Made by a program: the position numbers and the translations under genes. Positions 19,032-35,662 of a DNA stretch of 64,000 bases are shown here, in pieces. Under the pieces are notes generated by a model. It saw only the letters and a list, made by a program, of their open reading frames with translations. It was not told where the DNA came from and searched no databases. Numbering within the stretch: position 1 is the first letter of the stretch; the number at the start of each line of letters is the position of its first letter. The stretch comes from Olsenella uli (GTDB taxonomy: Bacteria; Actinomycetota; Coriobacteriia; Coriobacteriales; Atopobiaceae). Location: NCBI RefSeq assembly GCF_016899935.1, contig NZ_JACJJK010000003.1, forward strand, positions 62,001-126,000, given 5' to 3'.

Positions 19032-20275
19032 ACGACGAGAACCACTGGAAGCTCAAGCTCGCCTGCGTGTGGGGCGGCGAGCTCATCTCCGTGCTCACGA
19101 GCTCCATCCTGCAGATGGGCTTTGTCTGGCACATCACGCTCACGACAAACTCGGCGAGCATGCTCTCGCTGGCCTCGCTCGCTGGCTTCCTGCCGCTGGC
19201 GCTCTTTGGCACCTTCGCGGGAACCATCGTTGACCGCCTGCCGCTCAAGGTCTCGCTCGTCGGCGCGGACCTCTTCATCGCGGCGGTGAGCGCCGTCGTG
19301 GCGGCGGTCTCGCTCATGGGCGCGCTTCCCGTATGGGTGGTCATGGTCGCGCTCTTCGTGCGGGCCATCGGCAGCTCCCTGCACACGCCCGCCTTCCAGG
19401 CGCTCACGCCGCACCTGGCGCCGGCCGAGCACCTCACGCGTCTCGCGGGCGTGACGCAGGCCGTCCAGTCCGGCGGCTACATCCTCGGCACGGCGATCGC
19501 GGCGGTGATCTACCCGCTCTGGGGGCTCACGGCGATGATCGCGCTCGACGTGGTCGGGGCGCTTGTGGCCTCGGTGGCGGTGCTGGCGGCGCGGCTCGAC
19601 GTGGGCGGCTCGCGCGGTACGTCGGGCGAGCGGGGCCTCGGCATCGCGGCCCAGGCGCGCGCCCTCGCCGCAGAGACCGCCGACGGCTACCGCGTCCTGC
19701 GCGGCTATCGGGGCCTCTTTGCGCTCCTGTGGTGCGGCTTCGTCTTTACGCTGGTCTTCTCGCCCATCTCGGCGCTCTTCCCGCTCATGACGCTCGATCA
19801 CTTCAGCGGCACCACGGGTGACGCGGCCACGGCGGAGATCGTGTTCTCGGTGGGTATGATCGTGGGCTCGGCGCTGCTCACGGCGACGGGCGGCTTCAAG
19901 AACCGTGCGTACACCGTCTGCTTTGCCACGGCGCTCTACGGCTTTGCGACGCTGGTTGCGGGTTGCGCAGGGCCGAACGCCGGCGGCATGCAGCTCTTCT
20001 TTGTGATGAGCTTCCTCATGGGTCTGAGCTCGCCGTTCTATTCCGGTCCGCAGACAGCCCTCATGCAGGAGAAGATCCCGCCCGAGTACCTGGGGCGCGT
20101 CTTCGGCCTCTACGGGGCAATCATGTCTTGGGCGATGCCGCTTGGGCTGGCGTTCTCGTCGCTCTTCGCGGATGCCGTGGGCGCGCCGGCGTGGTTCTTC
20201 GGCGCGGGCGTCGCGATGGTCATTCTCGCCTGCGTGACCTGGGCGATTCCCGCCATCCGAAACGTGGAGCGGTAA
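19028..20275 (+). CDS. Major facilitator superfamily efflux protein
   Basis: 415 residues with about twelve membrane helices and no signal peptide. The loop between helices 2 and 3 has GTIVDRLPLK, the MFS motif A region (G-x-x-x-D-R). The middle loop (about 190-215) is cytoplasmic. It belongs with MFS_3/enterobactin-exporter-like drug or siderophore exporters. Starts in an ATGA overlap with the response regulator, so it is the last gene of the operon. A palindromic hairpin follows 16 bp after the stop. Confidence 0.9.
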   Translation: MNDENHWKLKLACVWGGELISVLTSSILQMGFVWHITLTTNSASMLSLASLAGFLPLALFGTFAGTIVDRLPLKVSLVGADLFIAAVSAVVAAVSLMGALPVWVVMVALFVRAIGSSLHTPAFQALTPHLAPAEHLTRLAGVTQAVQSGGYILGTAIAAVIYPLWGLTAMIALDVVGALVASVAVLAARLDVGGSRGTSGERGLGIAAQARALAAETADGYRVLRGYRGLFALLWCGFVFTLVFSPISALFPLMTLDHFSGTTGDAATAEIVFSVGMIVGSALLTATGGFKNRAYTVCFATALYGFATLVAGCAGPNAGGMQLFFVMSFLMGLSSPFYSGPQTALMQEKIPPEYLGRVFGLYGAIMSWAMPLGLAFSSLFADAVGAPAWFFGAGVAMVILACVTWAIPAIRNVER

Positions 20276-20290
20276 CCCCTCATGACGTCG

Positions 20291-20345
20291 CGTTCACCGA
20301 GTCTGTACTTTTTTCGATACCCAGGAAGTACAGACTCGGTGAACG
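20291..20345. terminator. 20-bp perfect inverted repeat
   Basis: Arms 20291-20310 and 20326-20345 (CGTTCACCGAGTCTGTACTT and its inverse) with a 15-nt loop beginning TTTT. It lies directly behind the MFS stop codon and is probably the operon terminator. Confidence 0.6.
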
Positions 20346-20378
20346 CTCGTGAATTCGCAGGTAGAGCGTTTGCCCGTT

Positions 20379-20417
20379 GAGTCTGTATTCGTGTCAGACG
20401 CGAAAAACTACAGACTC
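20379..20417. repeat. Second, related hairpin (GAGTCTGTA arms)
   Basis: GAGTCTGTA (20379-20387) and TACAGACTC (20409-20417) repeat the core of the neighbouring hairpin 20291-20345, including the following GATGAAC resembling GGTGAAC. Looks like a duplicated, partly decayed copy. The remainder up to 20561 holds no ORF I would support. Confidence 0.55.
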
Positions 20418-20561
20418 GATGAACATGGGGCGCGCGCAGCCGCTATCCGACCTCTTGCGTTACGCGCGGGCGACGATGGCGTCGCGGAGCCGCTGAGCGC
20501 AGCCGGGTCACTCGCGATTGCTTGCGTTGGCAGCGGTGCGCTGCGGCTCGCAAAGGATTCG

Positions 20562-21008
20562 TCACTTATGGCCACAACCCCAGACCTCGCTCACGATTCG
20601 CAGCGTGAGCTCGTCGCGGCTGCCGGCGTAATACTTGTCCAGCACGGCGCCGAAGACGGGGTCCGCCCCCGTGAGCTCGAAGAGCGTCATCGACGAGCGG
20701 ACCTTGAGCGCGTCGATGTCCCCCAGCACGGCCACGGGGTCGCTCCCCGGCAGGGCGAGAAGCGCGTGCGAAATCTCAATCAGTCGCGCCCCGAGCAGGG
20801 GATGGTTGACGTATGCGTCCAGCTCCTCGCGGCTGCCGATGCCGTAGCGCTCCGCCATGGGGCTGTGGCCGAGCCCGTGCGCCTGCGGGAAGACGAACCA
20901 GATCCAGTGGCTCCGCTTGCGCCCCGTGCGAATCTCGGCGAGCGCCCGTTCGTAGACGTTGCCGTCCTGCGCTCGGACGAAGCGCTCGATGTCAAAGCTC
21001 GCGGTCAT
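20562..21008 (-). CDS. DUF1810 family protein
   Basis: 148 residues starting MTASFDIERFVRAQ, Shine-Dalgarno AGGGAGGAG. The conserved DUF1810 blocks are present: the N-terminal FVRAQ-x3-YERALAEI, SHWIWFVFPQ, GLGHSPMAERYGI, LLGARLIEI and DALKVRSSMTLFE. The family is widespread and small, and its biochemical role is not established to my knowledge. Divergent from the tag gene with 61 bp between the starts. Soluble, no signal. Confidence 0.9.
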   Translation of the reverse strand: MTASFDIERFVRAQDGNVYERALAEIRTGRKRSHWIWFVFPQAHGLGHSPMAERYGIGSREELDAYVNHPLLGARLIEISHALLALPGSDPVAVLGDIDALKVRSSMTLFELTGADPVFGAVLDKYYAGSRDELTLRIVSEVWGCGHK

Positions 21009-21069
21009 GTGATGCTCCTCCCTTTTGTCAGATAATAGACCCGTCAAGTCGAGAAGCGCGGAGGCCTGC

Positions 21070-21690
21070 ATGTCGTACTGCGACTGGGATATCACCGATG
21101 AGCTCTGCCTGCGCTACCACGACGAGGAGTGGGGCGTGCCGCTGCACGACAACCGCGGGCAGTTCGAGTTCCTCTCGCTCGAGGTCATGCAGTGCGGGCT
21201 CAACTGGACCATGATGCTGCACAGGCGTGAGGTGTTCCGCGCGTGCTTCGCGGGCTTCGACTTCGATGCCGTGGCGGCGTTTGGCCCGGATGACGTCGAA
21301 CGCATTCTGGAGACTCCGGGTATGATCCACTCCCGCCGCAAGGTCGAGGCAATCATCAACAACGCGCGCTGCTTCCAGCGGGTGCGCGAGGAGTCTGGCA
21401 GCTTTGACGCGTACCTCTGGGGCTTCTCGGACGGCAAGACGATCCTCTACAACAAGCACGCCGACGGGTGGATCCCCGTGAGCAACGGCCTCTCGGCGCG
21501 CGTGGCGGCGGACCTGCGAAAGCGCGGCTTCAAGTACCTGGGTCCCACGACGGTCTATTCACACCTCCAAGCCTGCGGCATCATCAACGACCACGGTCGC
21601 GACTGCCCGCGCTACGCCGCGATAAACGCCCTGGGCCCCACGATCGAAAAGCGCCGCTACCTCGAGAAGGACGTCCACCACTACGAGTGA
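21070..21690 (+). CDS. tag: DNA-3-methyladenine glycosylase I
   Basis: 206 residues from MSYCDWDI; GGAGG at 21060-21064 lies just upstream. The hallmarks of Tag are visible: CDW near the N-terminus, YHDEEWGVPLHDNRGQFEFLSLE with the catalytic-pocket Glu, GLNWTMML, and YSHLQACGIINDH-x3-C, which together with the first Cys and a His gives the Tag zinc site. It removes 3-methyladenine from alkylated DNA in base-excision repair. The stop codon is part of a palindrome (21688-21720). Confidence 0.95.
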   Translation: MSYCDWDITDELCLRYHDEEWGVPLHDNRGQFEFLSLEVMQCGLNWTMMLHRREVFRACFAGFDFDAVAAFGPDDVERILETPGMIHSRRKVEAIINNARCFQRVREESGSFDAYLWGFSDGKTILYNKHADGWIPVSNGLSARVAADLRKRGFKYLGPTTVYSHLQACGIINDHGRDCPRYAAINALGPTIEKRRYLEKDVHHYE

Positions 21691-21720
21691 TTCAAAAGGG
21701 GACAGACCCCTTTTGAATCA
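21688..21720. terminator. 14-bp palindrome with GGGGACAGACCCC core
   Basis: Arms 21688-21701 and 21707-21720 (TGATTCAAAAGGGG and its inverse), 5-nt loop ACAGA. Begins with the tag stop codon and ends in A/T-rich DNA; probable terminator. Same core as the palindromes at 45923, 54026 and 60420. Confidence 0.6.
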
Positions 21721-21832
21721 TCATATTGATGGTGATGGGTAGTTTTCTCGCCATATCTTTTTGTACTTCTCGCTTGTAGACTGAGAGAAACACTTGTCAG
21801 GCGTACGACGAACGGGAGTCCAAGGAATGAAG

Positions 21833-24800
21833 ATGACCGATGAGCTCCAGACTGCGTTGGAGAAGCTCAACCCCGAGCAGCGCCGTGCCGTGGAGTGCCT
21901 GGACGGCCCGCTGATGGTGATTGCCGGCCCCGGCACGGGCAAGACTCAGCTTCTGAGCCTGAGGGCAGCCAACATCCTCATCAAGCGCGACGCCGCCCCC
22001 AAGAACATCCTCTGCCTCACGTATACCGAGGCCGGTGCCGAGGCCATGCGTTCTCGCCTGATCGAGCTCATCGGCAGAGAGGCGTACGGCATCCAGGTGA
22101 GCACCTTCCACGGGTTTGCCAGTAGCGTTCGCGCGGCTCATCCGGAAAGCTTTCCCCGTCCTGCCTCCGACCAGCTTGTCACGAGCCTGCGACAGGCAAA
22201 GATCATGGATGAGCTGCTCAAGACGCTGCCGTTTGGCTCTCCGCTCTCAAGCATTGGCAGGGGAGACGTCGCGCGCTTCTCGCGGGAGATGCTCGCCTTT
22301 GTCTCAAATGTCAAGCGCAGCGGCATCTCCTACGAGGCGCTTTCAAAGATCGCCGAGCAGAACATCCATGCCGCGGACTGGCTTGAGCAAAACACCTCGC
22401 TTTGCGACATCGCTGCCATGACGGCGAGCTCGCGCGTCGTGGAACGCTTTGAGACCGAGGTCGAGCGGGCCAGCGCGAACGCCCCTGACGAGCTCAAGCT
22501 TCCCGTGGTCTCCACTCCGGGAATCTACGTACCCTTTATCACAAGCCTTCGCGATACCGTCCGACGCACCGAGCTCGTGGACGAGAACGGAAAGACTGCA
22601 GGCTACAGAAACATCCGAGACGCGTTCTTCGAGGGAAGCAACAAGGAGGGCAGGCGCCTCCGAACCCGAAAGGAAGGCGAGCGGCTTCTTGCCGCCTGCT
22701 CGGTTGCCCAGCGCTACCAGGAAAACCTCGACAACCAGCACCTCTACGACTACGACGACATGATCGCCGACTTCGTAAGGTCGGTCGAGGAGGACGACGA
22801 ACTGCGCCAGGAGCTCCAGGACACCTACACCTACATTCAGGTCGACGAGTTCCAGGACACCAACGGCGCTCAGATGAGGATCGTCGAGCTCCTCTGCGAG
22901 GGACTCGAGCGCCCCAACGTCATGGCGGTGGGCGATGACGACCAGGCCATCATGCGCTTCCAGGGCGCGACCATCGAGTGCATCAACCAGTTCGTCGACC
23001 GCTACCACCCGCAGAGCGTCGTGCTCATGACCAACTACCGCTCCACTCCGGGCATCGTCGAGCTTGGTCAGCGGGTGTCGGCGCAGGTCGAGCGCCGCCT
23101 CGCCGCATGCGACGACAAGGCGATCCGGGCCAACTGCCCCCGAGGAGACCAGACCGAGTTCTCCGAGACCGTCTTTCAGGGCAAGGCGGAGGAGTATGCC
23201 GCCCTGGCGCGTGACATCCGTGAGCGCATCGATGGTGGCTACCTCAATACCTGCAAGGATCCTGACGAGGCAATCGCGGTTATCTCACCCAAACACACCG
23301 TTCTGAAGGCGCTCATCCCGCATCTCGTTGCGGAGGGCGTTCCCTTCTCGTACCGCCAGACTCAGGATCTCTTTGCATCCGAGCGCATGCAGACCATGCT
23401 TGCGCTGATTTGCTGCGTCTGTGCGCTCTCGCAGGGGCGGGCGCAGGTTGCCTCGAGCTGTCTGCCTCAGATCGTGTGCGCGCCCGAGCTGGGTGGCGAC
23501 CATCCAAGCTCAGTGCGCTTTGCCCTCGCCGCGCACAGGGAGTTCCATGGAGACTGGCTGCTCGCCATGGAGCACACGCAAAACGAGCGCATCCGTGGCA
23601 TACTCGACAGTCTCATGACCTGGGCCGCGGAGGCGCCAAGCTCGCCGGTGCGCGAGCTGCTCTTCAAGATGGCGGCGCGTTCGATGACGCACTACCGTCA
23701 CCAGGGCGAGAAGGACCCGCTTGCGGCGGCGGAGTTCAACGCCGGCATGCGAGCCCTGCTCAACTTTGTGGAGGGAGAGCTCGCGCAGGCAGGCGGTCTC
23801 GGCCGAGCGCTTCGCCTGCCCGACGTTGAGGATCTGCTCGAATCGGCTCAAAAGTATGGCGTGGCCATCGAGGCAAGCGTCAGCCTCGGTGCCCCCGGGG
23901 CCGTGCGGCTGACGTCTGCCCACAGCTCCAAGGGTCTTGAGTTCGATTGCGTCTATCTTGTCGACGCCGACGACGCCACCTGGCACAAAGGAGCCAACGG
24001 AGGCAGCCTCTACCCCTCCAACCTGCTCATTGGTGACGAGAAGGACGAGGATGACGCACGGCGCCTTCTCTTCGTTGCCCTGACGCGCGCAAAGCGCCAT
24101 CTGGAACTCTACCGCGCCGCCGGGTCAACCGTGCGCGAGCTCTCGGGCGTGGTCGAGACCCGCGAGGTCGACCCAGACCCGATCGCCCTTGACGCGGCCG
24201 TCGCAACCGAGTGGCACGACAGCTACCGGCTGGACACACCTGAGCTCGTTGCCCTGCTCGACGCCAACAAGGACGTGAGGCACCTCTCGGCCTCTGCCCT
24301 CAATGCCTTTGTCTGCTACAAGGAGGGCTGCACGAACAGCCTCTCGTTCCCTGAGCGCCAGGTTCTGCGACTGCCCGAGGCTCCCCAGATTCAGCTTGAG
24401 TTTGGCAGCATTGTGCACGCGATGTTGGAGGACATAGCGAATCGGGTCATGGGGCCAGAGGGAGCCTCGCTGGATGAGGTCATGGCGGCCCATCGCCAGA
24501 GGGTCCGCTGGATGGACTTCCCCGTCGCGGACGTCTCTCGCTACGAGCAGCGCTTCGAGCGAATCTGCACGAGCTTTGTGCCGTGGCTCCTTGAGAGCGC
24601 AAGGGGCTACAGAAGGGTCACGGAGGCTAAGCTATCCGCCTCAACCGCTGCGGGAACCCCGCTCTTTGGCTACCTTGACCTGCTGCTCATTGATGATGCC
24701 GCAAGGACCGTGCGCATCGTCGACTACAAGACCGGCTTTAGCTACAAGGTCTCCGATGACTATGAGCGCCAGCTGAGGTTCTACAAGCTGCTCGTGGAAT

Positions 24801-25111
24801 CCTCGCCCCAGTTCGAGGGCTACGAGGTCGTCTCCATGGGCGACTTCTACGTGGAGCCTGAGAAGGATAGCGGCGAGCTTCACCCTCCGCTCTCCGTTAC
24901 GGCATCAGACGAGGAGGTTCGCTCTCTTGAAAGGCTCGCTGACGTCGTGTGGGCGCGTATCCAGGCGGGGCAGTGGGACACGAGTGCCTTCGAGCAAAGC
25001 GAGCTCTACGAGCGTGCGTTGACCCAGCAGGAGAGCGAGCGCTCCAAGGCGGACAAGGCTCGCGTCATGCAGCGGGCGTACGAGGCGTGGCTGGTCCAGT
25101 CCGCCTCCTGA
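21833..25111 (+). CDS. UvrD-like helicase fused to PD-(D/E)XK nuclease
   Basis: About 1,092 residues. The ATG at 21833 lies 6 bp after AAGGA; 21827 is an alternative. Superfamily 1 helicase motifs: Q-motif LNPEQRRAVE, Walker A AGPGTGKTQ, Ia TYTEAGAEAM, II YIQVDEFQDTN, III GDDDQAI, IV MTNYRST, V LTSAHSSKGLEF and VI LLFVALTRAKRHL. The C-terminal 250 residues carry a RecB-type nuclease: GSIVHAMLED, GYLDLLLIDD and IVDYKTG supply the His, Asp and Asp-x-Lys. So it unwinds and cuts DNA, like AddA/AdnAB relatives, but stands alone with no partner gene. First gene of the accessory island; convergent with an unknown gene. Confidence 0.9.
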   Translation: MTDELQTALEKLNPEQRRAVECLDGPLMVIAGPGTGKTQLLSLRAANILIKRDAAPKNILCLTYTEAGAEAMRSRLIELIGREAYGIQVSTFHGFASSVRAAHPESFPRPASDQLVTSLRQAKIMDELLKTLPFGSPLSSIGRGDVARFSREMLAFVSNVKRSGISYEALSKIAEQNIHAADWLEQNTSLCDIAAMTASSRVVERFETEVERASANAPDELKLPVVSTPGIYVPFITSLRDTVRRTELVDENGKTAGYRNIRDAFFEGSNKEGRRLRTRKEGERLLAACSVAQRYQENLDNQHLYDYDDMIADFVRSVEEDDELRQELQDTYTYIQVDEFQDTNGAQMRIVELLCEGLERPNVMAVGDDDQAIMRFQGATIECINQFVDRYHPQSVVLMTNYRSTPGIVELGQRVSAQVERRLAACDDKAIRANCPRGDQTEFSETVFQGKAEEYAALARDIRERIDGGYLNTCKDPDEAIAVISPKHTVLKALIPHLVAEGVPFSYRQTQDLFASERMQTMLALICCVCALSQGRAQVASSCLPQIVCAPELGGDHPSSVRFALAAHREFHGDWLLAMEHTQNERIRGILDSLMTWAAEAPSSPVRELLFKMAARSMTHYRHQGEKDPLAAAEFNAGMRALLNFVEGELAQAGGLGRALRLPDVEDLLESAQKYGVAIEASVSLGAPGAVRLTSAHSSKGLEFDCVYLVDADDATWHKGANGGSLYPSNLLIGDEKDEDDARRLLFVALTRAKRHLELYRAAGSTVRELSGVVETREVDPDPIALDAAVATEWHDSYRLDTPELVALLDANKDVRHLSASALNAFVCYKEGCTNSLSFPERQVLRLPEAPQIQLEFGSIVHAMLEDIANRVMGPEGASLDEVMAAHRQRVRWMDFPVADVSRYEQRFERICTSFVPWLLESARGYRRVTEAKLSASTAAGTPLFGYLDLLLIDDAARTVRIVDYKTGFSYKVSDDYERQLRFYKLLVESSPQFEGYEVVSMGDFYVEPEKDSGELHPPLSVTASDEEVRSLERLADVVWARIQAGQWDTSAFEQSELYERALTQQESERSKADKARVMQRAYEAWLVQSAS

Positions 25112-25129
25112 CCAGCTGCGTCTGGGCAA

Positions 25130-26269
25130 TTACCTGAGAAGGTCGAGAAGCTCGGGCGGCAGCACGGCATCGCGCAGCTCGGGCGACCACGTCCCGTACA
25201 TGCATCGAACCTCCTCGAGCTGGGCCTTCCTGCGCTCGGCTTCGAGCTCCTCGCGCGCCTGAGCGTCCAGCACCTCGCACTCCCGCAGGCAGCGCCTGAG
25301 GCCGATCTCCCCGCGGGAGAAGCGGCTCAGCGGCTTGAGCTTTCGCTCAAAGCCCCTGAGATCCCCGTCATACGGCTCCAGCGAGAGAAGGTCGTGAAAG
25401 TCGCTGCGGAACCACACGACGCCGCTCTCCTCGTCAACCGTGTGCCCGTAGACCAACATGTCCGTGTAGTCGCCGTGCTCCTCCCGGAGCCGGAGGGTCC
25501 TCGCGTCGTCATCCCGCGCCGGGTCGAGCGTCGCATCGTGATCGAGGACAAAGCGGCTCTCGTCACCGTAGATGCCAGGATGGTGCACAAGGATGTCGCC
25601 CCGCTTGAACGGAAGCGGGAAGTTGAACCACATATCCTCAAAGCCCGGCCAGAGTACGTCCTTCTCCTCTTGGGTCAGACGGGGCGATCGGTCATCGACA
25701 AAGGCAACGGGCTCCAGGCCCGGCGAGACCAGCACGCTCACGTCGCTGTCGTAGTCCTCTTCGTCGGAGTCGTCGGCAAAGTAGCGCTTGGTGAGGATGA
25801 ACCGGTCATCTTTGAGCCCCCAGTCCTCCTCGTCGATGCAGTCGCGCAGCTTACGGACCGCGCGCTCGAACGACGGACGCACGTACGCGTCACCTCTATA
25901 GCTGACCTCGCGCTTCTGGACGATCCAGCAACAGGCCTCTCCGGGTTTCGACGAGCGGAGGTCATCCAGGAGCTGCTCCTGGATTCTCATGTATGCCTCA
26001 AGGAACGCATGGAGGCTCCTGCCTGCGAGATACGACATGTGCTTGGGAAAGATGGCGTCCGGCGTGGTCTCGATGAGGTTGCGCCATGCGGCGTGCTTCT
26101 CGGCAATCGTGCGCTTGTGACTGTTCCAGATGATGAAGGACGCTTCGATGGGAGGCGGGTTCCAGCCAATCTTCTCCCAGTGAGCGCGAACGGCGAGGGA
26201 GTCGACAAAGTCGAGGACGTCGAGGGGCTGCTCGCTCTCCGCAAAAGCTGCCGGGCTGAACGAGTCCAT
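25130..26269 (-). CDS. Unknown protein, island paralogue 1
   Basis: 379 residues, acidic, soluble, Shine-Dalgarno AAAGGAG. No known family recognised. It shares blocks with the products at 31622 and 32727: KHAAWRNLIETTPD (residues 58-72; second copy KLVAWQEIVDTMPD), LPFKRGDILVHHPG near residue 222 (IPFKRGDIVIDRT), and FSRGEIGLRRCLRE near 315 (WARGEMDLDFAIG). The central K-R-G-D-I block looks like a small beta-barrel strand pair within an alpha/beta protein. Convergent with the helicase-nuclease, 18 bp apart. Function unknown. Confidence 0.75.
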   Translation of the reverse strand: MDSFSPAAFAESEQPLDVLDFVDSLAVRAHWEKIGWNPPPIEASFIIWNSHKRTIAEKHAAWRNLIETTPDAIFPKHMSYLAGRSLHAFLEAYMRIQEQLLDDLRSSKPGEACCWIVQKREVSYRGDAYVRPSFERAVRKLRDCIDEEDWGLKDDRFILTKRYFADDSDEEDYDSDVSVLVSPGLEPVAFVDDRSPRLTQEEKDVLWPGFEDMWFNFPLPFKRGDILVHHPGIYGDESRFVLDHDATLDPARDDDARTLRLREEHGDYTDMLVYGHTVDEESGVVWFRSDFHDLLSLEPYDGDLRGFERKLKPLSRFSRGEIGLRRCLRECEVLDAQAREELEAERRKAQLEEVRCMYGTWSPELRDAVLPPELLDLLR

Positions 26270-26395
26270 GTCTGCTCCTTTGTGCAGAGGCTTGCTATCT
26301 ACAGCTCAGGATATGGGGCTATATGAGTCGTTTCTGTCCCATGGCCCTTAGTAGCTTTCTTTTGGACTTCATTGAGCTGGTGAGAAGGACGGGCG

Positions 26396-26494
26396 ATGGG
26401 CGACGCAGACGCTGAGAAGGACTTCGATTACATCGAGGCCGCAGACGAGTTCATGGACGAGTACGCGGACGTCTTTGAGGAGCTCGCCGGATGA
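26396..26494 (+). CDS. 32-residue acidic peptide, putative mini-antitoxin of Doc
   Basis: Starts MGDADAEKDFDYIEAADEF and ends VFEELAG; about half its residues are Asp or Glu and it should be a single amphipathic helix. Its stop codon overlaps the start of doc (ATGA), so translation is coupled. Phd antitoxins neutralise Doc with a C-terminal helical tail; this peptide is about the size of that tail and lacks the N-terminal DNA-binding domain. Antitoxin function is inferred from position and composition. GAGAAGGACGGGCG precedes it as a possible ribosome site. Confidence 0.6.
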   Translation: MGDADAEKDFDYIEAADEFMDEYADVFEELAG

Positions 26495-26877
26495 CGGGGC
26501 CGCTCTCCAGAGACGTTGCCTTGGCACTGCACGGGCGCGCCGTCGAGCGGTTTGGCGGCGCGCGGGGCGTACGCGATGCGGGTCTGCTCGACGCCGCGCT
26601 CGCACAACCCTGGCAAACCTTCGGCGGGGTCGAGCTTTATCCGACCCCAGAGGAGAAGGTGGCGCGCCTGTGCTTTGAGGTCGTGACCCAGCACCCGTTC
26701 GTTGACGGAAACAAGCGTGCCGGAGCGCTTCTTCTCGGTGTGCTTCTCCGCAGGGAGGGTTACGTGTTCAGGCCCACTGCGAGCGACCTTCTCAACGTCA
26801 TCATGGGCGTCGCCGCTGGGTCGAAGAGCTATCGGGAGCTCCTCGGTTTTGTACAGCAAGAGACGGGTGAAAGGTGA
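26491..26877 (+). CDS. doc: Doc-type Fic-fold toxin (death on curing)
   Basis: 128 residues. The Fic motif is clear: HPFVDGNKRAGALLLGVLL, matching H-x-F-x-D/A-G-N-K-R. The N-terminal block LHGRAVERFGGARGVRDAGLLDAAL is the typical Doc opening. Doc phosphorylates EF-Tu and stops translation; its partner antitoxin keeps it silent. Here the upstream partner is only a 32-residue acidic peptide, and four bases downstream begins a phosphoribosyltransferase-like gene, so the transcript likely carries three genes. Confidence 0.9.
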   Translation: MTGPLSRDVALALHGRAVERFGGARGVRDAGLLDAALAQPWQTFGGVELYPTPEEKVARLCFEVVTQHPFVDGNKRAGALLLGVLLRREGYVFRPTASDLLNVIMGVAAGSKSYRELLGFVQQETGER

Positions 26878-26881
26878 GCTC

Positions 26882-27706
26882 ATGGCTGCTCAGGGGAACA
26901 ACTATCGCATCGCTGCTCGCGTGACGGTGGAAAACGGCGTCAAACAGTACCACTGGGACACCGAGAGCCTCATGAGCGTCGTTGACCTTTGCGCGCCGAC
27001 GCTGGTGCAGGACGTGTTCAAGGGAAGGGCCTACTGGTTTGGCTATGAGTTCAGGCCAGACTCCCATCCCCTCGACCGCCGGGCATTTCTCGAGGACATA
27101 AAAGGGCTAGGGCAAAACGTCATTCCGGAGGGCTATCTCAGGAAGTTCATCAATGCGCCGCTTGTACTGCTGAACAAGCAGGTAAACCTGGCAACGATCG
27201 GCTTCTTTGTGTACCCCGTCTCGGGGCGGAGTCCGCTCGTCAACAGGATGATCGAGCAGATTGACGAGTGGACCTCTCATGAGGTCGAGGGCGTTTCGCT
27301 GGAGCTTGTGAAGCGACCTCCCTCGGAGATTGGCTTTGACTGGGAGAAGTTCGACCGGCGCTACGCGCCCACGAGCAATCGCGGCTATGACAACCGGTAC
27401 CACCAGATGAGGACCTACGTTGAGAACGAGCTTCTCCCGTCGATTCGTGCGGGGAAGTATTTCTCGCTGTCAAAGGCGGTCAAGATGAGGTACCGACCGT
27501 ACATCATGAACTTCCTCGAGTTCAATAAAGAGCAGGTCAAACAGTATGAGAGGCTGCGCGACGCGCATGGGGCCAACGTGTTGGTGGTCGATGACGTCAA
27601 CACATCCGGCTCGACGCTGAACGAGATTCTCCGCATGCTTGGCAAGCTCAACCCGAGCCTCGAGGTGTACGTATTCACGCTGGTCGGGAGGCCGGAGGCG
27701 GGGTAG
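26882..27706 (+). CDS. Phosphoribosyltransferase-like protein
   Basis: 274 residues starting MAAQGNNYRIAARV, four bases after doc. The PRPP-binding loop VLVVDDVNTSGSTLNEI near residues 235-252 is diagnostic of type I phosphoribosyltransferases (ComF/Apt class), with a short hydrophobic strand before the acidic pair. The N-terminal 200 residues do not resemble the usual ComF zinc finger or a nucleobase hood I know. Co-transcribed with Doc, it may be an accessory or immunity enzyme in a toxin or defence unit, but that is inference. Confidence 0.78.
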   Translation: MAAQGNNYRIAARVTVENGVKQYHWDTESLMSVVDLCAPTLVQDVFKGRAYWFGYEFRPDSHPLDRRAFLEDIKGLGQNVIPEGYLRKFINAPLVLLNKQVNLATIGFFVYPVSGRSPLVNRMIEQIDEWTSHEVEGVSLELVKRPPSEIGFDWEKFDRRYAPTSNRGYDNRYHQMRTYVENELLPSIRAGKYFSLSKAVKMRYRPYIMNFLEFNKEQVKQYERLRDAHGANVLVVDDVNTSGSTLNEILRMLGKLNPSLEVYVFTLVGRPEAG

Positions 27707-27728
27707 AGCTGTGGCAATTGATGTGATA

Positions 27729-27758
27729 CTATACACATGAAAATATACATGTGTATAG
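27729..27758 (+). promoter_or_regulatory. Operator palindrome of the Phd-YafQ operon
   Basis: Perfect 11-bp arms CTATACACATG (27729-27739) and CATGTGTATAG (27748-27758) around an 8-bp AT spacer, ending 10 bp before the antitoxin start. It overlaps the expected -10 area (TTGATG at 27718-27723 may be the -35). Phd/YefM antitoxins bind palindromes of this kind. Confidence 0.75.
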
Positions 27759-27768
27759 GAGGCATCAA

Positions 27769-28047
27769 ATGAGTCAGATCACCGTTCCCCTCGACACCAT
27801 GGTTCCCATCAGCAAGTTCAGCAGGGGAGGTGCCAGCGCCGAGTTTGCAAAGGTCGCCGACGGCGTTCCCGTCACCGTGCTGAAGAACAGTGAGCCGACG
27901 TACTTCATCATCAGCGTTCACGATTACCGCGAGTTCTGCGAGGCGGAGAAGCGTCTGGCGAACCTTGAGGCGCGCTATGAGGCGGAACATGGGATAGGCG
28001 AGAAGTTCGAGAGTGTCGAAGACCTCATGGCGGATCTCAATGATTAA
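27769..28047 (+). CDS. Phd/YefM-family antitoxin
   Basis: 92 residues from MSQITVPLDTMVPISKF, ATG seven bases after AGGAGG. The PISKFSRGGASAEFAKVADG and VPVTVLKNSEPTYFIISVHDY blocks are the Phd/YefM DNA-binding fold, which binds its operator as a dimer. The acidic C-terminus (GIGEKFESVEDLMADLND) is the toxin-binding tail. The gene overlaps the toxin by eight bases. Second toxin-antitoxin unit within 1.5 kb of the island. Confidence 0.9.
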   Translation: MSQITVPLDTMVPISKFSRGGASAEFAKVADGVPVTVLKNSEPTYFIISVHDYREFCEAEKRLANLEARYEAEHGIGEKFESVEDLMADLND

Positions 28048-28321
28048 GTCCATCCTCCGTACTCCGCGCTTCAAACGCGACTACAAGGCGCTGGTCAAGA
28101 AGCACTACAACATGAGCCTCTTTGAGGCGGCGGTAAGGACGCTTGTCGCCCAAGATGCGGATGTGTTGATAACCCGATATCGCGATCACGCGCTCAAGGG
28201 AGAGTGGGGCGGGTATCGAGAGTTACACATCTCGGGCGATTGGCTTTTGGTCTACCGCATCAACGAGGATGAGCTTCAGCTCGTCCTTACCCGGACAGGC
28301 TCACATGACGAGTTGTTCTAG
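28040..28321 (+). CDS. yafQ: YafQ-type mRNA interferase toxin
   Basis: 93 residues starting MIKSILRTPRFKRDYKALVKK; the ATG overlaps the antitoxin stop (ATGATTAA). The RelE/ParE fold of YafQ is visible: RFKRDYK, ITRYRDHALKGEWGGYRELHISGDWLLVYRI and LVLTRTGSHDELF. His near 63 and 67 and Asp near 70 line up with the YafQ catalytic positions, and a near-C-terminal His (SHDELF) completes them. It cleaves mRNA on the ribosome when freed. YafQ normally pairs with a DinJ antitoxin; here the partner is Phd/YefM-like. Confidence 0.9.
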   Translation: MIKSILRTPRFKRDYKALVKKHYNMSLFEAAVRTLVAQDADVLITRYRDHALKGEWGGYRELHISGDWLLVYRINEDELQLVLTRTGSHDELF

Positions 28322-28345
28322 GTTGTTCCTCTGCGCTTATCGGTC

Positions 28346-29785
28346 TCACTGGGAACCTGCCTGTTCGTCATCCTTGCTCTGATATGCCGTGCCACCATTC
28401 ATAATGAGGTCGTCAACGAGTCGTGTGATGGTCAGGCAGTGGGGGAAAGGATTGGATTCCATCGGTCGCGGCTCGATGCTATTGAGCTGCCTGAGAAGAT
28501 TGGCATATTGCTGGCAGTTTGCATCTCGCAGTCGCTTGACGATAAAACGACTAAACGCTAGCTCTCGGGCGGCATGTTGGTAGTAGTTCTTGAATCCGTT
28601 TTCTTCCTTTTCGGTTGGGTAGACATCTTTCTGCTCGTAGGTGTTCCGCTTGTAGGTGCATAAAACGTCCTTGAGGCCTGCTTTTGTCATGACGCTTGCT
28701 GCTAGATAGGCCGATTCGGAAAACCCTTCAAAAGTGGTCGAGAGCTTGGGAGTTCTGCTTGCGGAGATGGAGTCATAGATGAAGAAGGCCTTCGGATAGT
28801 AGAAGTGGAGGAGCTTGCTTGAGAAGGAAACGTTCACGCTTGGAGCCCCCTCGATGAGGAGCTTAGCGCCCTTTGAGAACGCCGCCCATTGTTTGAGCTC
28901 GCTCTTTTTCAGAGCTTTCTCGGAGGAGCTGGCCTGTTCTTGAAGCCGACGTATCGTGCGGACGGTGACCGAGGCGTCCCTGAGCACACGTGCCGCGTTA
29001 AGCGCTTTGGCGAAGTGGATGACGCAAGCTGTCAAATCGCGAATATAATCCGAGTCCCCCTCGAATCGTTGTCCGAAGGTGACCTGATCTGCCCTGTCGG
29101 AGAGGGTTGTGAGCTTTGCAAAGAACCAGCTATCGTCACGGAAAAGGCTCTCATGAAAGAAGCGCAGCTGGTTACGCGCGGAGTTTATGACCTCTTTCTC
29201 CAGTCGTTCGATGTCTTTGACGAAATCTTTGGGACAAAGGTTTACATCGCTAAGCACAACCTTCTTCTTCGCTTTTTTGCTGTGGTTCTCAATCTGCTCG
29301 TTGAGGTTTTCGATTAACGCTTTCGTGCTCGCCGCATCCTTTTTTCTGAGAAAGTTAATCTCATTGTCAAGGTTTACGGCTTCACCCCTTAAATAGGTCG
29401 TTGCGCCCCCAGGTCTTTCCGGCCGAAACAGCATTCGCGCGATGTCCTGGAAAAAGCTCTCGTAACCTTCTGTTCCAAGGAAGCTCTCCCCTGGCTTGCC
29501 GGGATGATGGTCCTTATAATCCCTTTGCTTATCTTCGTGCAAAGTGTACGAGTATCGTTCGGGAGACGCTGCATAGGCGCGCCCAATGAGCCACATCTGA
29601 TTCGCAAAGATTGACTCTGCGGACGTCAGATACTTTGGATCCTTGAGGTCCTTTTTCTGTCGCTCAATTACCTCTATGTTTGGGAAGGGATTCTTCTTAC
29701 AGAAAAGATACAGAAGGTCATTTCCATTCCAAGAGCTATTCCGTTTCAGATACTCATCTATTTCGTTGAGCACGTTCTTTCCCAT
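28346..29785 (-). CDS. Unknown 479-residue protein, last gene of WYL operon
   Basis: Start taken at the second ATG (29785), eight bases after AAAGG; 29803 is the upstream alternative without a ribosome site. Mostly helical, basic, with a charged coil around residues 150-215, and AT-richer than the core genome. A block near residue 335 reads SKLLHFYYPKAFFIYDS, reminiscent of LHF-x-P-x-x-F-x-I-x-D motifs seen in several all-helical, mobile-element-associated families. I cannot name the family. It follows the WYL regulator by 51 bp on the same strand, so it is probably regulated by it. Confidence 0.72.
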   Translation of the reverse strand: MGKNVLNEIDEYLKRNSSWNGNDLLYLFCKKNPFPNIEVIERQKKDLKDPKYLTSAESIFANQMWLIGRAYAASPERYSYTLHEDKQRDYKDHHPGKPGESFLGTEGYESFFQDIARMLFRPERPGGATTYLRGEAVNLDNEINFLRKKDAASTKALIENLNEQIENHSKKAKKKVVLSDVNLCPKDFVKDIERLEKEVINSARNQLRFFHESLFRDDSWFFAKLTTLSDRADQVTFGQRFEGDSDYIRDLTACVIHFAKALNAARVLRDASVTVRTIRRLQEQASSSEKALKKSELKQWAAFSKGAKLLIEGAPSVNVSFSSKLLHFYYPKAFFIYDSISASRTPKLSTTFEGFSESAYLAASVMTKAGLKDVLCTYKRNTYEQKDVYPTEKEENGFKNYYQHAARELAFSRFIVKRLRDANCQQYANLLRQLNSIEPRPMESNPFPHCLTITRLVDDLIMNGGTAYQSKDDEQAGSQ

Positions 29786-29836
29786 TGTGCTGACCTTTCC
29801 CATTTGGATTGATTGTTTTCGCGCGGGCAGCCATTC

Positions 29837-30892
29837 CTATTCGTACGCCTCTGTGGCCGCATGCAGCTGTCGGCCGATCTCGTCCGCCAGGTGCTGCGGC
29901 GACAGCACAACCACGTCCGGGGCGTTGCTGCGGCCAAAGCGAATCATGGCGCTCTCGTTCACGTAGGCCTCAACATCCACGTGGTCATCCGTCTCGTTGA
30001 AGAAGCGCACGCCGTCACCGAAGATGTCGACGATGTCGCCGGCCATGCGCCGCACGATCCTAAACGTCACGCGCACGGTGCCGCCGGCGTACATGTGGAT
30101 GTGCTCGCGCATGTACTTGCCGAGGTCGAGGTTCTTGTCGCCTGCCTTGCCGAGGGAGCTGAACGGCTTGCCACGCTCGTCAAGGATCTCCAGGTCCATG
30201 ATGCGGTCGATTCGGTAGTTGGTGATGTCGTCGTACTTGTCGTAGTTGCAGATGAGGTAGTACTTCCCCTCGTTGACGGCCATCTGGTAGGGCGTGCACA
30301 CGTAGACGCGCTCGGTGCCGTCGGGGCGGCAGCGCGGGTGAGCCTTCTTGTCCGTTCCGATGGAGAGGTACTTGAAGGAGACCTTCCGCTTGCGGCTGAT
30401 GGCCTCGTCGAGCAGCTCGATGGTGTAGAAGAGCTGCTTGTTGTCCGTGCGGTCCTTGGGCATGGCGTTCACGTGCGTCATGTGCGACTTGAAGTACACG
30501 CTTGAAAGATTCTCGAGCTTGCCAATCAGGGCCTTGCGCTGCGAGGGAGAGATGTGACGGGAGAACAGCAGACCGTCGATGAGCAGGCGCAGCTCAGCAT
30601 CCGTGAATTCGCGCTCGAGGTAGTAGTCGGTGACGATGTTCGCCGAGCGCTCCTCGCCGGTCCTGGGGTCGCGTGTCGTGCGCGGAACCTCGCGGTAACC
30701 AATCGCGAAGCCCTCGTCGATGAGGTCGGCGATGTTGCGGGCAATGGCCTTGCGGTCAGCTTTCATGCCGAACTTGCTCTCCAGCAGGTCGATGATGTCC
30801 TTCTGGCTAAGCCGGTGGTCCGCGTCAGAGTACTTCCGCAAGATCTCGAGGATGTCCATGATGAGCATCTTCTTTGGCTGCTTTGGGTTCAT
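29837..30892 (-). CDS. WYL-domain transcriptional regulator
   Basis: 351 residues from MNPKQPKKMLIMDILEILRK. Residues 1-75 form a winged helix (RLSQKDIIDLLESKFGMKADRKAIARNIADL). The centre (about 150-230) is the WYL ligand-binding domain with VSFKYLSIG, VCTPYQMAVNEGKYYLICNY and NYRIDRIMDLEIL. The C-terminal WCX-type domain follows (TVRVTFRIVRRM). WYL proteins sense nucleic acid or nucleotide ligands and often repress defence operons (BrxR/CapW type). Middle gene of a three-gene unit with two unknown proteins. Confidence 0.88.
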   Translation of the reverse strand: MNPKQPKKMLIMDILEILRKYSDADHRLSQKDIIDLLESKFGMKADRKAIARNIADLIDEGFAIGYREVPRTTRDPRTGEERSANIVTDYYLEREFTDAELRLLIDGLLFSRHISPSQRKALIGKLENLSSVYFKSHMTHVNAMPKDRTDNKQLFYTIELLDEAISRKRKVSFKYLSIGTDKKAHPRCRPDGTERVYVCTPYQMAVNEGKYYLICNYDKYDDITNYRIDRIMDLEILDERGKPFSSLGKAGDKNLDLGKYMREHIHMYAGGTVRVTFRIVRRMAGDIVDIFGDGVRFFNETDDHVDVEAYVNESAMIRFGRSNAPDVVVLSPQHLADEIGRQLHAATEAYE

Positions 30893-30975
30893 GGCGTCCC
30901 CACTCTCCGAGAGGCCTGCTTTCCACAAGTATAGGAAGCGGCCATTGGGGGAGGGGGCGCCGTTCCTGAGCGGCC

Positions 30976-31500
30976 TCAGTCGAGGCTCCAATCGGCTGGA
31001 AGCAGTGGCATGAGCATGTCGTCAGGGTCGTAGAGGTCAATCGTGACCTCGTTGTTGTCCTGGTCGAGCACAACGATCTTCTTGTCGGAGATCTCGCCGT
31101 CAACCGGAACCCAGTTCGTGACGGCCTGCATGCAAATTGCCTCCGTGAGGAGCTGCGCGGCGCGGATGTACTCGGAGACCCTTCCGGAGAACTCGTCGAG
31201 CGGGGCGTCGGCAAACTCCCTCATCACGGCCACGAGATGGGCGCTCCTCTTGGGGAGGCTCTCCTCTTCTGCGTGTTCGATGAGCTCATCGATGGCAAAG
31301 AGGGCCATGTCCTCAAAGAGCGAGGAGTCAAAGCCGCCGCGGCGCAGGGAGTCGACCATCAAGCGCCAGTAGTTCCACCAGCCATGCCTATCCGCCTCTT
31401 CTTCGTAGCGGCCGGGCATCAGGACGAGGACACTGAGGGTGATGTCGTGGTCCTCGTTGTCTTCCGTGTGCTGGTCCGGTGTCTGCTTCTCATCGCACAT
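30976..31500 (-). CDS. Unknown acidic protein, first gene of WYL operon
   Basis: 174 residues if started at the ATG 31500; an in-frame GTG at 31530 would add ten. Strongly acidic, no membrane segment. Residues 35-60 (GWWNYWRLMVDSLRRGGFDS) and 65-110 look helical, and the end is a beta-rich acidic tail (KIVVLDQDNNEVTIDLYDPDD). No family recognised. Lies 83 bp upstream of the WYL regulator on the same strand and is divergent from island paralogue 2 (120 bp apart). Confidence 0.65.
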   Translation of the reverse strand: MCDEKQTPDQHTEDNEDHDITLSVLVLMPGRYEEEADRHGWWNYWRLMVDSLRRGGFDSSLFEDMALFAIDELIEHAEEESLPKRSAHLVAVMREFADAPLDEFSGRVSEYIRAAQLLTEAICMQAVTNWVPVDGEISDKKIVVLDQDNNEVTIDLYDPDDMLMPLLPADWSLD

Positions 31501-31621
31501 GTCCTTCTCGCTTTCCTTCGATGCCTGCACTTAGCCTGCAGGATAGAGGGCTATGTGCGTCAATTTCGACCCATGTCGGGCGATAGGCTGAGTGCAAGCA
31601 AGGCGTGAGGGAAGGAGCCCC

Positions 31622-32719
31622 ATGGATATCTATTCGTTCTTCAACTCGCGTGACGTCGCCGATTATCTGCGTGGCGAGAAGCACGAGTTTACCGCTGCCG
31701 AGGCGGCGTACATCGTCTATCTCTCGGATACGGCGACCCTCGACGAGAAGCTTGTGGCCTGGCAGGAGATCGTGGACACGATGCCCGACTGTCCGGTGTG
31801 CCACTCCGCATTGGATCCCTACTTCAAAAGGGACTACAAGAGCGAGCATCAGTTTCTGAGGGAGTACATCTTCACCATGAAGCTCATTCTGAGGAAGTTC
31901 ATGGACGGCGAGGGTTGCGTCTACATGCCGCATGAATTCCGGTTCACCCCTGAGACGGCTATTCGATATGGGAGGGACGAGCACTCGCTTTGGATTCAGG
32001 AGATGCCTGACCCGTTCTCGAGTTTCGACAAGTGCGTTGACAGCCTGCGACATGATGACGAGGGGGCGCCAGAGTTTGATCGCTATTGCATCGCGAAGCG
32101 CGCAATTGACGGAGGGGATTCGGGATATGTCACCCTTGACGAGCGGTTCCGCGTGCTAGACGTCACGTGGGCCAACCACGGCCCCTCCGATTACGATGAC
32201 GTTGACATGCATCTATGCTGTGCGTTTCTCGAGCTTCCCATTCCGTTCAAGCGCGGGGACATCGTCATCGACCGCACGGCGCGCGACCCGCGGCCGTTTG
32301 TGTTCGACTACCTGAAGTTCTGGGACTCTGCGACGCTTGCTGAGCATGGCCATGTGCTCAGCGCAGAGCGTGCCGAGAAGATCGACAGGTACGTTGCCAA
32401 CTGGCGCGCGGAGGGGTCCAAGGACGATTCGTACATGCCGGCGATGGGCTGGTCGCTGGCGCCCGGCTCTCTGCTTGCTGCAGAGGACCCTGCCCTTCTG
32501 GCCTACGACCCCTTTGGAGCCTGCCACAACTATCTGGATCTTGAGTATTACCGTGAGCCGCTCGAGGGCAAGCTGCGCCTGCTTGAGGTCGCATCCCGGT
32601 GGGCACGTGGCGAGATGGACCTCGACTTTGCGATTGGCAACGCAGCCCTGGTTGACGCTGAGGTCAGGGCGGCAAGGCTTCGCTCGGAGATGGAGACGGA
32701 GTACATTGGGGTTGTCTAG
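31622..32719 (+). CDS. Unknown protein, island paralogue 2
   Basis: 365 residues; ATG 31622 behind GAAGGAGCCCC. Related along its length to the product of 25130-26269: AAYIVYLSDTATLDEKLVAWQEIVDTMPD, IPFKRGDIVIDRTARDPRPFVFD and RWARGEMDLDFAIGNAALVDAEVR align with that protein, as does a C-terminal charged helix. An insertion with MPAMGWSLAPGS occupies the place of the YGHTVDEESGVVW block. Tail-to-tail with paralogue 3 with 7 bp between stops. No known family or catalytic motif seen. Confidence 0.75.
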   Translation: MDIYSFFNSRDVADYLRGEKHEFTAAEAAYIVYLSDTATLDEKLVAWQEIVDTMPDCPVCHSALDPYFKRDYKSEHQFLREYIFTMKLILRKFMDGEGCVYMPHEFRFTPETAIRYGRDEHSLWIQEMPDPFSSFDKCVDSLRHDDEGAPEFDRYCIAKRAIDGGDSGYVTLDERFRVLDVTWANHGPSDYDDVDMHLCCAFLELPIPFKRGDIVIDRTARDPRPFVFDYLKFWDSATLAEHGHVLSAERAEKIDRYVANWRAEGSKDDSYMPAMGWSLAPGSLLAAEDPALLAYDPFGACHNYLDLEYYREPLEGKLRLLEVASRWARGEMDLDFAIGNAALVDAEVRAARLRSEMETEYIGVV

Positions 32720-32726
32720 CAGGGGT

Positions 32727-33752
32727 TCATTCGGCTCTGCGGCAAAAGCTGAGCGTCTGGCGCAGTGCCTCGGCACTGATGCGGCCATCCTCACGCGTCT
32801 GCACGTCGTTGAGTGCGTTCCAGAGCTCGCGGCCCCTCTCGGCGCTTCCGTTGAGAAGGGCCGCAGTCTCGAGAAGCGCGGGATCGACCTTGGCCTCGGC
32901 TTCGTTGGCTGGAGCCTCGAGCCTTCTGATGTTGTATAGCGGGGAGTAGCGGTGGAGCGCGGCCTCGCCTCTGGCCAGGTGCTTGAGGGCGCATAGATCG
33001 AAGTGACCCTTGGCGTTACGGTAGAGAACCTGGGGCCAGCAGCAGTCTGTGACGTCCCCTCGCTCCGGCTCCACGACCACGGCGACGTACTCCTCGGTGA
33101 AGGGCCTGCAGTGGAAGACAACGATGTCGCCTGCCGCGTACGGGGTGCGAAGGTTGAGGTCACCGAATGGCTCGTGCTCGCGTCGCCAGCAGTGGCAGGC
33201 GTCGTCAAAGTGGTTCTTCTCGAAGTAGCAGACCTCGCCGTCTATGAGGTAGAACGTGTAGGGGTTGGAGAAGCTGCGCCCGTTGTTGTTGCTGCGCTCC
33301 TGACGCCACTTCTCGAGGACGAACCAGTGGGGGATGCTGGGGTCGAGGTCGTCTGGCTGGTTGTAGTATGCGGAGATCCAGGCGAGGGCGTCATTGATCG
33401 AGGCGAACACGCCCGAGAAGTCCTCGTCCCACTCGTCGTCGGGGGTGAGCTCGCCGCAGTCGAGCAGGCAGAGGAACTCGTCGTCGCCGATTGTGGTTGC
33501 CTCTTCGAGGGCGCGACGGTGCTCCGCTAGTTGATGGGCGGCCGAGCGAACGTCTCCTGGCAGGCTTGGATCGTAGGGGCCTAGTGCCTCGAAGGCTTCG
33601 ACTTTGGTGCGCAGCGGGACGGGAGCGTCTCGAATAAGCTCGACGAGTGCCTGCGGCGACGGGGGATTGTCTGTAAGGAAGCGAGCCATGTCCTCCGATG
33701 GCATGCACGTGTTGAGAATCTTGGCGAGCGCGGCGCTGTCGATGGTCTTCAT
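32727..33752 (-). CDS. Unknown protein, island paralogue 3
   Basis: 341 residues starting MKTIDSAALAKILN, Shine-Dalgarno AGGAAC. It is the most divergent member of the local family: RTKVEAFEAL corresponds to the AW-x-E block, TPYAAGDIVVFHCRP to the K-R-G-D-I block and KHLARGEAALHRYSPL to the R-G-E block. It adds a TFYLIDGEVCYFEKN strand pair and several Cys/His (HFDDACHCWRREH) that are not in the other two. Function unknown. Confidence 0.72.
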   Translation of the reverse strand: MKTIDSAALAKILNTCMPSEDMARFLTDNPPSPQALVELIRDAPVPLRTKVEAFEALGPYDPSLPGDVRSAAHQLAEHRRALEEATTIGDDEFLCLLDCGELTPDDEWDEDFSGVFASINDALAWISAYYNQPDDLDPSIPHWFVLEKWRQERSNNNGRSFSNPYTFYLIDGEVCYFEKNHFDDACHCWRREHEPFGDLNLRTPYAAGDIVVFHCRPFTEEYVAVVVEPERGDVTDCCWPQVLYRNAKGHFDLCALKHLARGEAALHRYSPLYNIRRLEAPANEAEAKVDPALLETAALLNGSAERGRELWNALNDVQTREDGRISAEALRQTLSFCRRAE

Positions 33753-33840
33753 GGTTGTTCCTGTCTGTTCATGCTGGATATGGCTGTTATACGAACTTGG
33801 ATGGGTTAGTTTTGCCACACTAAAATAAATTCGATTCTGG

Positions 33841-33869
33841 CGAACAAACGTTCTAAACTGTGCTATACT
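33841..33869 (+). promoter_or_regulatory. LexA-like SOS box overlapping a promoter
   Basis: CGAACAAACGTTCT at 33841-33854 fits the Gram-positive/actinobacterial LexA consensus CGAACRNRYGTTYC except its last base. TATACT at 33864-33869 is a strong -10, and a -35 spaced by 17 bp would fall on 33841-33846 inside the box, so LexA binding would block it. The surrounding 33780-33870 is AT-rich. Prediction from sequence; no other box was noticed in the window. Confidence 0.7.
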
Positions 33870-33873
33870 CTCA

Positions 33874-34030
33874 CCAAGGTACGAGGGCGACAAGAGCGGC
33901 ACGGAGGCCCCCGATGGTACGTGCCGGCGGGTGACCAGGGGCAACGGGGACTGGTCACACTTGGAGCTCCCGGGCGGGCACGCGCCCCCGTCTTCCGGCA
34001 CCCGCAAAGTCCGGAGCTCACAGTCTGTGC
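33874..34030 (+). ncRNA. Candidate structured RNA or leader upstream of the YhcG-type nuclease
   Basis: Starting a few bases after the -10 box, the transcript can form CCAAG/CUUGG (33874-33878 with 33960-33964) enclosing two perfect hairpins: CGGCACG/CGUGCCG (33897-33903, 33920-33926) and GUGACCAG/CUGGUCAC (33931-33938, 33951-33958). Further on, GGGCG/CGCCC (33972-33987), pairing GAGCUC motifs (33964-33969 and 34014-34019), and CACAG-U-CUGUG (34019-34029) follow. No ORF fits. Either a long 5' leader of the nuclease gene (starts 34067) or an independent small RNA; it may belong to a known Rfam class such as raiA that I cannot check here. Confidence 0.6.
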
Positions 34031-34066
34031 AGGTTGATTTGCCGTGGGTGAGACGGGGGTTCAGCT

Positions 34067-35113: not shown

Positions 35114-35119
35114 GGGGGA

Positions 35120-35608
35120 CTACAGGTCCACCACGCGGACATCGTGGCCGTGCCCGTGCAGAAGCCCGATTAGGTCAGCCGTGGCCAGAAGGACCGTCGC
35201 GGTGTTGTCGCAGGGGTGCACGGTCAGTCGTCCCGCGTCAACGAGCGCCTGGTCCAGCACGAACTCCACGCGCCCCTCGGCGTCGTTCAGCGCGCCGAGT
35301 GGCGTGACGGAGCCCGGCACCAGGCCGAGCATCGCCCGCAGGTCCTGCTCGCTCGCAAACGAGAGCCGCCGCGAACCCAGCCGCTCCTGGATCTCCCGCA
35401 GCGGGACGTTCTTCTCGTCCGGAAGGCACACGAGGTAGTACGCACGGTGCTTGTCGTCCCGCAGGAAGAGGTTCTTGGCGCCCAGTTCGCGGTGGGGGAT
35501 GCCCGCGGCCACGGCCTCCGCCACGGTGAAGACCGCCTCGTGCTCGTAGAGCTCGTAGGCAATCCCCGCGCGGTCCAGCAGCTCCAGCGTCTCGACCTTC
35601 CCGTACAT
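35120..35608 (-). CDS. YbaK/ProX-type aminoacyl-tRNA editing protein
   Basis: 162 residues from MYGKVETLELLDRAGIAYELYEHEAVFTVAEA, Shine-Dalgarno GGGAGGACACT. The family blocks HRELGAKNLFLRDDKHRAYYLVCLP, KNVPLREIQERLGSRRLSFAS and LGLVPGSVTPLGALND are all present, including the Lys and the GxxxP loop of the editing site. Such free-standing proteins hydrolyse mischarged Ala/Cys-tRNA(Pro) in the cytoplasm. Convergent with the nuclease gene, six bases apart; the island ends here. Confidence 0.92.
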   Translation of the reverse strand: MYGKVETLELLDRAGIAYELYEHEAVFTVAEAVAAGIPHRELGAKNLFLRDDKHRAYYLVCLPDEKNVPLREIQERLGSRRLSFASEQDLRAMLGLVPGSVTPLGALNDAEGRVEFVLDQALVDAGRLTVHPCDNTATVLLATADLIGLLHGHGHDVRVVDL

Positions 35609-35662
35609 AGTGTCCTCCCGCAGCGCTACCATGTGGCCAGGCAAACGACGTCAGGAGACAGT

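Follow-up and report, generated by a model that had tools for sequence, protein, structure and literature searches.

A conserved 32-residue open reading frame upstream of doc in Olsenella uli as a putative Phd-type antitoxin without a DNA-binding domain

Genomic organization of the doc locus

The window analyzed here is a stretch of 64,000 nt from Olsenella uli (contig NZ_JACJJK010000003.1, positions 62,001 to 126,000), and all coordinates without a locus name refer to it. A gene for a Doc toxin is preceded in the window by a mini-ORF with its own ribosome-binding sequence and followed by a gene for a phosphoribosyltransferase (PRTase) domain protein; a short intergenic region separates the mini-ORF from a divergently transcribed gene (Table 1).

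Table 1. Features of the doc locus in the window
Feature	Coordinates	Strand	Basis
Divergent gene, 379 aa, conserved neighbour	25130..26269	-	orthologues 72-87% identical
20-bp element ATGAGTCGTTTCTGTCCCAT, imperfect dyad ATGAGTC-N6-GTCCCAT; candidate operator or promoter element	26323..26342	.	invariant run
Shine-Dalgarno sequence AGAAGGA, 6 nt 5' of the mini-ORF ATG	26383..26389	+	sequence; single changes among four genomes
Mini-ORF, 32-aa stand-alone Phd-type neutralising tail (putative antitoxin)	26396..26494	+	ORF, tail profile, conservation, selection
doc toxin, 128 aa, Fic/Doc fold, motif HPFVDGNKRAG intact	26491..26877	+	profiles, AF2, Foldseek
274-aa protein with C-terminal phosphoribosyltransferase domain	26882..27706	+	PF00156 E 1e-7; kept in four loci

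The toxin is recognized by Pfam PF02661 (E 8e-17), by TIGR01550 (39.7 bits, cut-off 38.65) and by the PHROG profile of Doc-like toxins (E 8e-25), and it contains the HxFxDxNKR motif required of a Doc/Fic toxin. Its AF2 model has a pLDDT of 94, the closest PDB structure found by Foldseek being 3dd7, that of P1 Doc with the Phd C-terminal domain (TM 0.81). The protein is 88-90% identical to the Docs of two congeners (genomes G028 and G013); in viral contigs one distant Doc only was found.

The PRTase gene starts 4 nt past doc and likely belongs to the same operon. Its product matches the PRTase region of ShosT in PADLOC (E 5e-6), a resemblance noted for 26882-27706 and L086:8780-9370 together with a macro-domain gene that comes next in G028. 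Further downstream in the window there is a second toxin-antitoxin pair (27751-28321), consisting of a Phd/YefM-family antitoxin and a YafQ/RelE-type toxin. In G028 a tail similar to that of this antitoxin is found on a protein with an unrelated N-terminal domain; G013 encodes a related swapped protein, another case of N-terminal exchange.

The product of the divergent gene has no match in Pfam, NCBIfam, PHROG or PADLOC, no DNA-binding domain was recognised in it, and its AF2 model is of low confidence (pLDDT 46). Being without a domain and poorly modelled, it was set aside as a candidate regulator. This gene and two others (31622-32719 and 32727-33758), whose products are about 17-28% identical to it, are three paralogues located in one island; their family, with proteins of about 340-380 aa, is unannotated. 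The G+C content of positions 20000-36000 is 52-63%, below that of most surrounding sequence, as in an island.

The mini-ORF product and the Phd tail

The mini-ORF is read from an ATG to a TGA, and its product (MGDADAEKDFDYIEAADEFMDEYADVFEELAG) contains 13 acidic residues (Asp and Glu) and a single basic one. The stop codon and the doc ATG share 4 nt (ggATGACG), which confirms the overlap described when the locus was read from sequence alone (below, the sequence-only reading). A longer form of the mini-ORF from an alternative start is ruled out in the window by an in-frame stop four codons 5' of the ATG.

The sequence-only reading had likened the peptide to a Phd neutralising tail on account of its size, and the resemblance extends beyond size. 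A tail HMM built from the last 24 residues of 175 full-length Doc antitoxins (at least 58 aa, no short ORFs in the build) matches the mini-ORF with 21.6 bits (E 5.6e-7), and the peptide shares 52-78% identity with the tails of the family's full-length antitoxins. Judging by these matches, it is homologous to the Phd tail, and not just similar in size. No PDB match was found for the peptide alone, which is probably too short for such a search and is probably disordered.

The proposed lack of a DNA-binding domain was borne out as well. The mini-ORF product has no Pfam or NCBIfam match, PF02604 (the N-terminal Phd/YefM DNA-binding domain) included, and profiles of Phd, RHH and AbrB N-terminal halves detect no remnant within 600 nt upstream in three frames. 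With the N-terminal HMMs, intact antitoxins score 1e-21 to 1e-28 and a true frameshift at locus L254 is detected at 4e-32, and a frameshifted or separate Phd, RHH or AbrB half upstream is, by these control-validated profiles, ruled out for the window clade. Moreover, the divergent gene and the mini-ORF are spaced by 126 bp, and this spacing is too short for a Phd N-terminal half together with a promoter. Because PF02604 was tested for and is absent, the peptide is, as far as its sequence tells, outside the Phd family as defined; the locus is best described as a variant of Phd-Doc, where the tail most likely acts as it does in Phd.

Published work on Salmonella bears on what such a tail could do. 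The bare 22-residue tail, Phd52-73, binds Doc with a Kd of 73 pM (61 pM for the full-length protein), blocks phosphorylation of EF-Tu by Doc and alone restores growth, but with a delay in comparison with full-length Phd (PMC9207808). The missing half of Phd therefore does matter in Salmonella. When Salmonella L70 is placed on L30 of the peptide as the alignment anchor, conserved bulky residues match four of the six hot spots (I59-F19, M60-M20, L67-F27, L70-L30), H63 aligns with Y23, and the gatekeeper F56 aligns with Ala16, Ala being present there also in full-length Phds of the clade. By analogy, the length of the peptide would be sufficient for neutralisation, judged by the published peptide work (PMC9207808), and plausibly it would act by folding upon binding, as the Salmonella tail does.

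Conservation, selection and origin

Among 140 genomes of the family, Doc is present in 30 (E <= 1e-18), and most of these docs have a Phd of 65-80 residues directly upstream, with a tail such as VDFMDEYADVFEELAK. The 32-residue form is found, complete with start, stop and ATGA overlap, in four genomes of two families: that of the window, G028 and G013 from the same genus, and G257 from another family of the order. Conservation in relatives, which the sequence-only reading had suggested looking for, is thus observed at the same length and with the same overlap. The docs of the three other genomes are 82-90% identical to the window doc, and the four loci have in common the divergent gene of about 380 aa, an intact doc and the PRTase gene. 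Outside this clade the closest Doc (L032, 63%) is partnered by a full-length antitoxin with the Phd/YefM domain; the PF02604 cut-off is reached by the antitoxins of relatives L005 and L032.

In the four genomes, codons 16-31, the part aligned with the Phd tail, contain 0, 1 and 8 variable sites at codon positions 1, 2 and 3, and are under purifying selection, while codons 2-15 (3, 6 and 5 variable sites, respectively) are little constrained. Over the whole mini-ORF the NG86 estimates are 0.03-0.17 for dN and 0.29-0.82 for dS, with dN lower than dS in every pair. When the same substitutions are placed randomly, the number of amino acid changes is equal to or lower than the observed one with P values of 0.017, 0.017 and 0.30 in the comparisons of the window with each of the other three genomes, so that this pairwise test alone is modest, and weak for the last pair; the pattern is stronger in the tail only. 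Since length, start, stop and ATGA overlap are kept in relatives, dN is below dS and the tail HMM matches, the mini-ORF is more than a chance open reading frame.

The mini-ORF is probably a descendant of a full-length Phd by truncation, and in the simplest history the N-terminal half was lost once, before the four genomes diverged or exchanged the island. As the truncated form is kept in four species of two families, the comparison of these loci indicates that it is not a one-off truncation. The sequence-only reading had named truncation of a Phd that is full-length in relatives as one of the outcomes that would speak against it: relatives do encode full-length Phds and the peptide is probably truncated, but the truncated form is itself conserved.

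The same observations bear on whether the mini-ORF is a decaying remnant, that is, a truncated Phd that no longer neutralises, next to a Doc that is inactive or silent. The full-length Phds of relatives are in line with decay, as are the occurrence of genuine frameshift remnants (L254) and the seeming lack of conservation at other tail-only loci, since the 28-aa form of L107 has no tail-only relative among 250 genomes of its family. Still, the identity of length and signals in four genomes, the third-position bias of the tail half and an intact Doc that is under constraint make decay an unlikely explanation.

The intergenic region

In the alignment of the four genomes, no invariant stretch is longer than the 20-bp element (20/20), which lies in the 126 bp between the divergent gene and the mini-ORF. 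At up to three mismatches it has a single copy in the genome, which rules it out as a regulon motif, and within the genus it occurs only at the three mini-ORF loci. It could serve as an operator or promoter element, or could mark the start of a small upstream ORF (MSRFCP...) that does not keep its frame further downstream. A sigma-70 scan from 26200 to 26500 gave no promoter-like site. No regulator gene of the paaR-paaA-parE type was found in the operon, the upstream gene being divergent and the downstream one encoding the PRTase protein.

Proposed mechanism and alternative explanations

We consider the mini-ORF to be a stand-alone Phd, free of a DNA-binding domain, that neutralises Doc by its tail, and give this reading a probability of roughly 0.8. 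It is supported directly by homology, conservation, the missing N-terminal domain, and the intact fold and motif of Doc. From these we infer its translation, coupling, binding, neutralisation and regulation. The peptide would be translated just ahead of doc, coupled to it via the ATGA overlap, and the acidic chain would fold as a helix into the groove of Doc. There it would keep the toxin off its target, possibly preventing phosphorylation of EF-Tu, by analogy with the P1 and Salmonella Docs. Having no DNA-binding half, the peptide would exert no autorepression, and the antitoxin to toxin ratio would be set by coupling, by turnover of the peptide and by a promoter controlled in some other way, with the 20-bp dyad as a candidate site.

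Doc could instead be neutralised in trans by another antitoxin, with the mini-ORF as an accessory; one candidate is the Phd/YefM-family antitoxin at 27751-28047, 0.9 kb 3' of doc. However, that antitoxin has a different tail and a YafQ/RelE-type toxin of its own, whose gene (28013-28321) it overlaps, and its counterpart carries another N-terminal domain in G028 and in G013. A search of the genome at E <= 0.05 gave no second Doc-type tail, the mini-ORF being the only copy, which agrees with the earlier description of the peptide as the sole partner of Doc and leaves neutralisation in trans very improbable. The ATGA overlap and the conserved Shine-Dalgarno sequence could also be those of a translational leader, setting Doc translation by stop-start coupling with a peptide that is irrelevant as such, but a pure leader needs no amino acid conservation, while here it is seen in the residues that match the Phd tail, though not in the first 15, so that we give this explanation little credit. 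Finally, it is hardly probable that Doc has been repurposed together with the PRTase protein, the tail being a regulatory subunit of the enzyme and not an antitoxin: the PRTase gene is next to doc in all four loci and its domain is distantly ShosT-like, but Doc retains the complete Fic motif and the fold of P1 Doc, and elsewhere in the wider clade docs are paired with ordinary Phds.

Tail-only antitoxins at other doc loci

In a non-random sample of 202 non-identical doc loci (class members, one clostridial order and the top-scoring hits in GTDB genomes), 12 have an upstream ORF of 28-50 residues that bears the tail and has no recognised N-terminal domain. These are the four mini-ORF loci and L042, L101, L103, L106, L107, L123, L167 and L256; L254 was left out as a frameshift, and L258, an ambiguous case, was not counted. 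At L101, L103 and L167 the tail profile is matched weakly (E 0.03-0.04), and the start codon of L042 is uncertain. Parsimony on the Doc tree requires 9 changes for the tail-only form, which thus seems, from the tree, to have arisen repeatedly, about 8-9 times among the 202 loci; of these origins only that of the window's four-genome form is shown to be conserved.

Other arrangements of the tail were also observed. In an Oscillospiraceae genome, the 28-residue ORF MDERTQTVLDTAEEIIDENMEAFLELAK before doc (L107:2903-2989) is shorter than that of the window. Directly upstream of another doc, L045:869-1480 (+) encodes a DUF1810 protein (Pfam E 6e-53) with a C-terminal Doc-antitoxin tail (..WDAAESFMEEYAEVFEELAK), an unusual domain fusion, and at L297 (G237:C10:166357-166428) a larger protein with a 360-codon open frame ends in the Doc-antitoxin tail VDVAVDFMDEYVDVFEELAK; both fusions fit a modular tail. 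The DNA-binding half has been widely exchanged, as seen in other families of the class, where many docs (L271-L295) are paired with AbrB-like antitoxins that carry a tail of this type.

The DNA-binding half of type II antitoxins is commonly regarded as necessary, serving autorepression and in many cases stability. Tentatively, and at somewhat less than even odds, tail-only Doc antitoxins may form a recurrent natural class (about 8-9 losses among 202 docs, 28-50 aa) of minimal peptide antitoxins, whose expression would depend on translational coupling and a separate operator and not on autorepression and conditional cooperativity. If the 32-residue tail is indeed selected as a stand-alone antitoxin, then in nature the inhibitory peptide would be enough by itself, and comparing it with the full-length Phds that accompany close Docs would reveal what autoregulation contributes. 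Moreover, Doc toxins annotated as solitary may have partners too short for gene calling. No description of a natural tail-only Doc antitoxin was found in the open-access literature, subscription papers being mostly outside that scope.

Comparison with known systems

The inhibitory motif and mechanism of FicTA modules such as VbhA-VbhT differ from those of the Phd-Doc tail. Common to them and the window locus are a small antitoxin and a helix that acts, or in the window would act, on a Fic-fold toxin (PMC3667792). In paaR2-paaA2-parE2 the antitoxin also has no DNA-binding domain and control is exerted by other factors (PMC8630535), but the toxin is of another family and the operon includes a regulator gene, none having been found at the window locus. 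Composite Doc modules, e.g. tasAB (PMC1626090), contain Doc antitoxins with exchanged N-terminal domains; there the domain is replaced, whereas in the window it is absent.

Among the closest systems are also Phd-Doc itself and the peptides derived from it. Phd-Doc of phage P1 and Salmonella (PDB 3dd7, 3k33) resembles the window locus in the Doc fold and motif, in the antitoxin gene coming first with an overlapping start, and, presumably, in a C-terminal helix that neutralises, 3dd7 being Doc with the Phd C-terminal domain only. The difference is in the antitoxin, which has 32 aa in the window versus about 70-80 and is without the Phd/YefM domain for DNA binding and dimerisation. The synthetic Phd52-73 peptides (PMC9207808, PMC10728895) likewise consist of the tail alone, with similar length and comparable spacing of hot spots, but they are laboratory constructs, while the window contains a natural, conserved gene.
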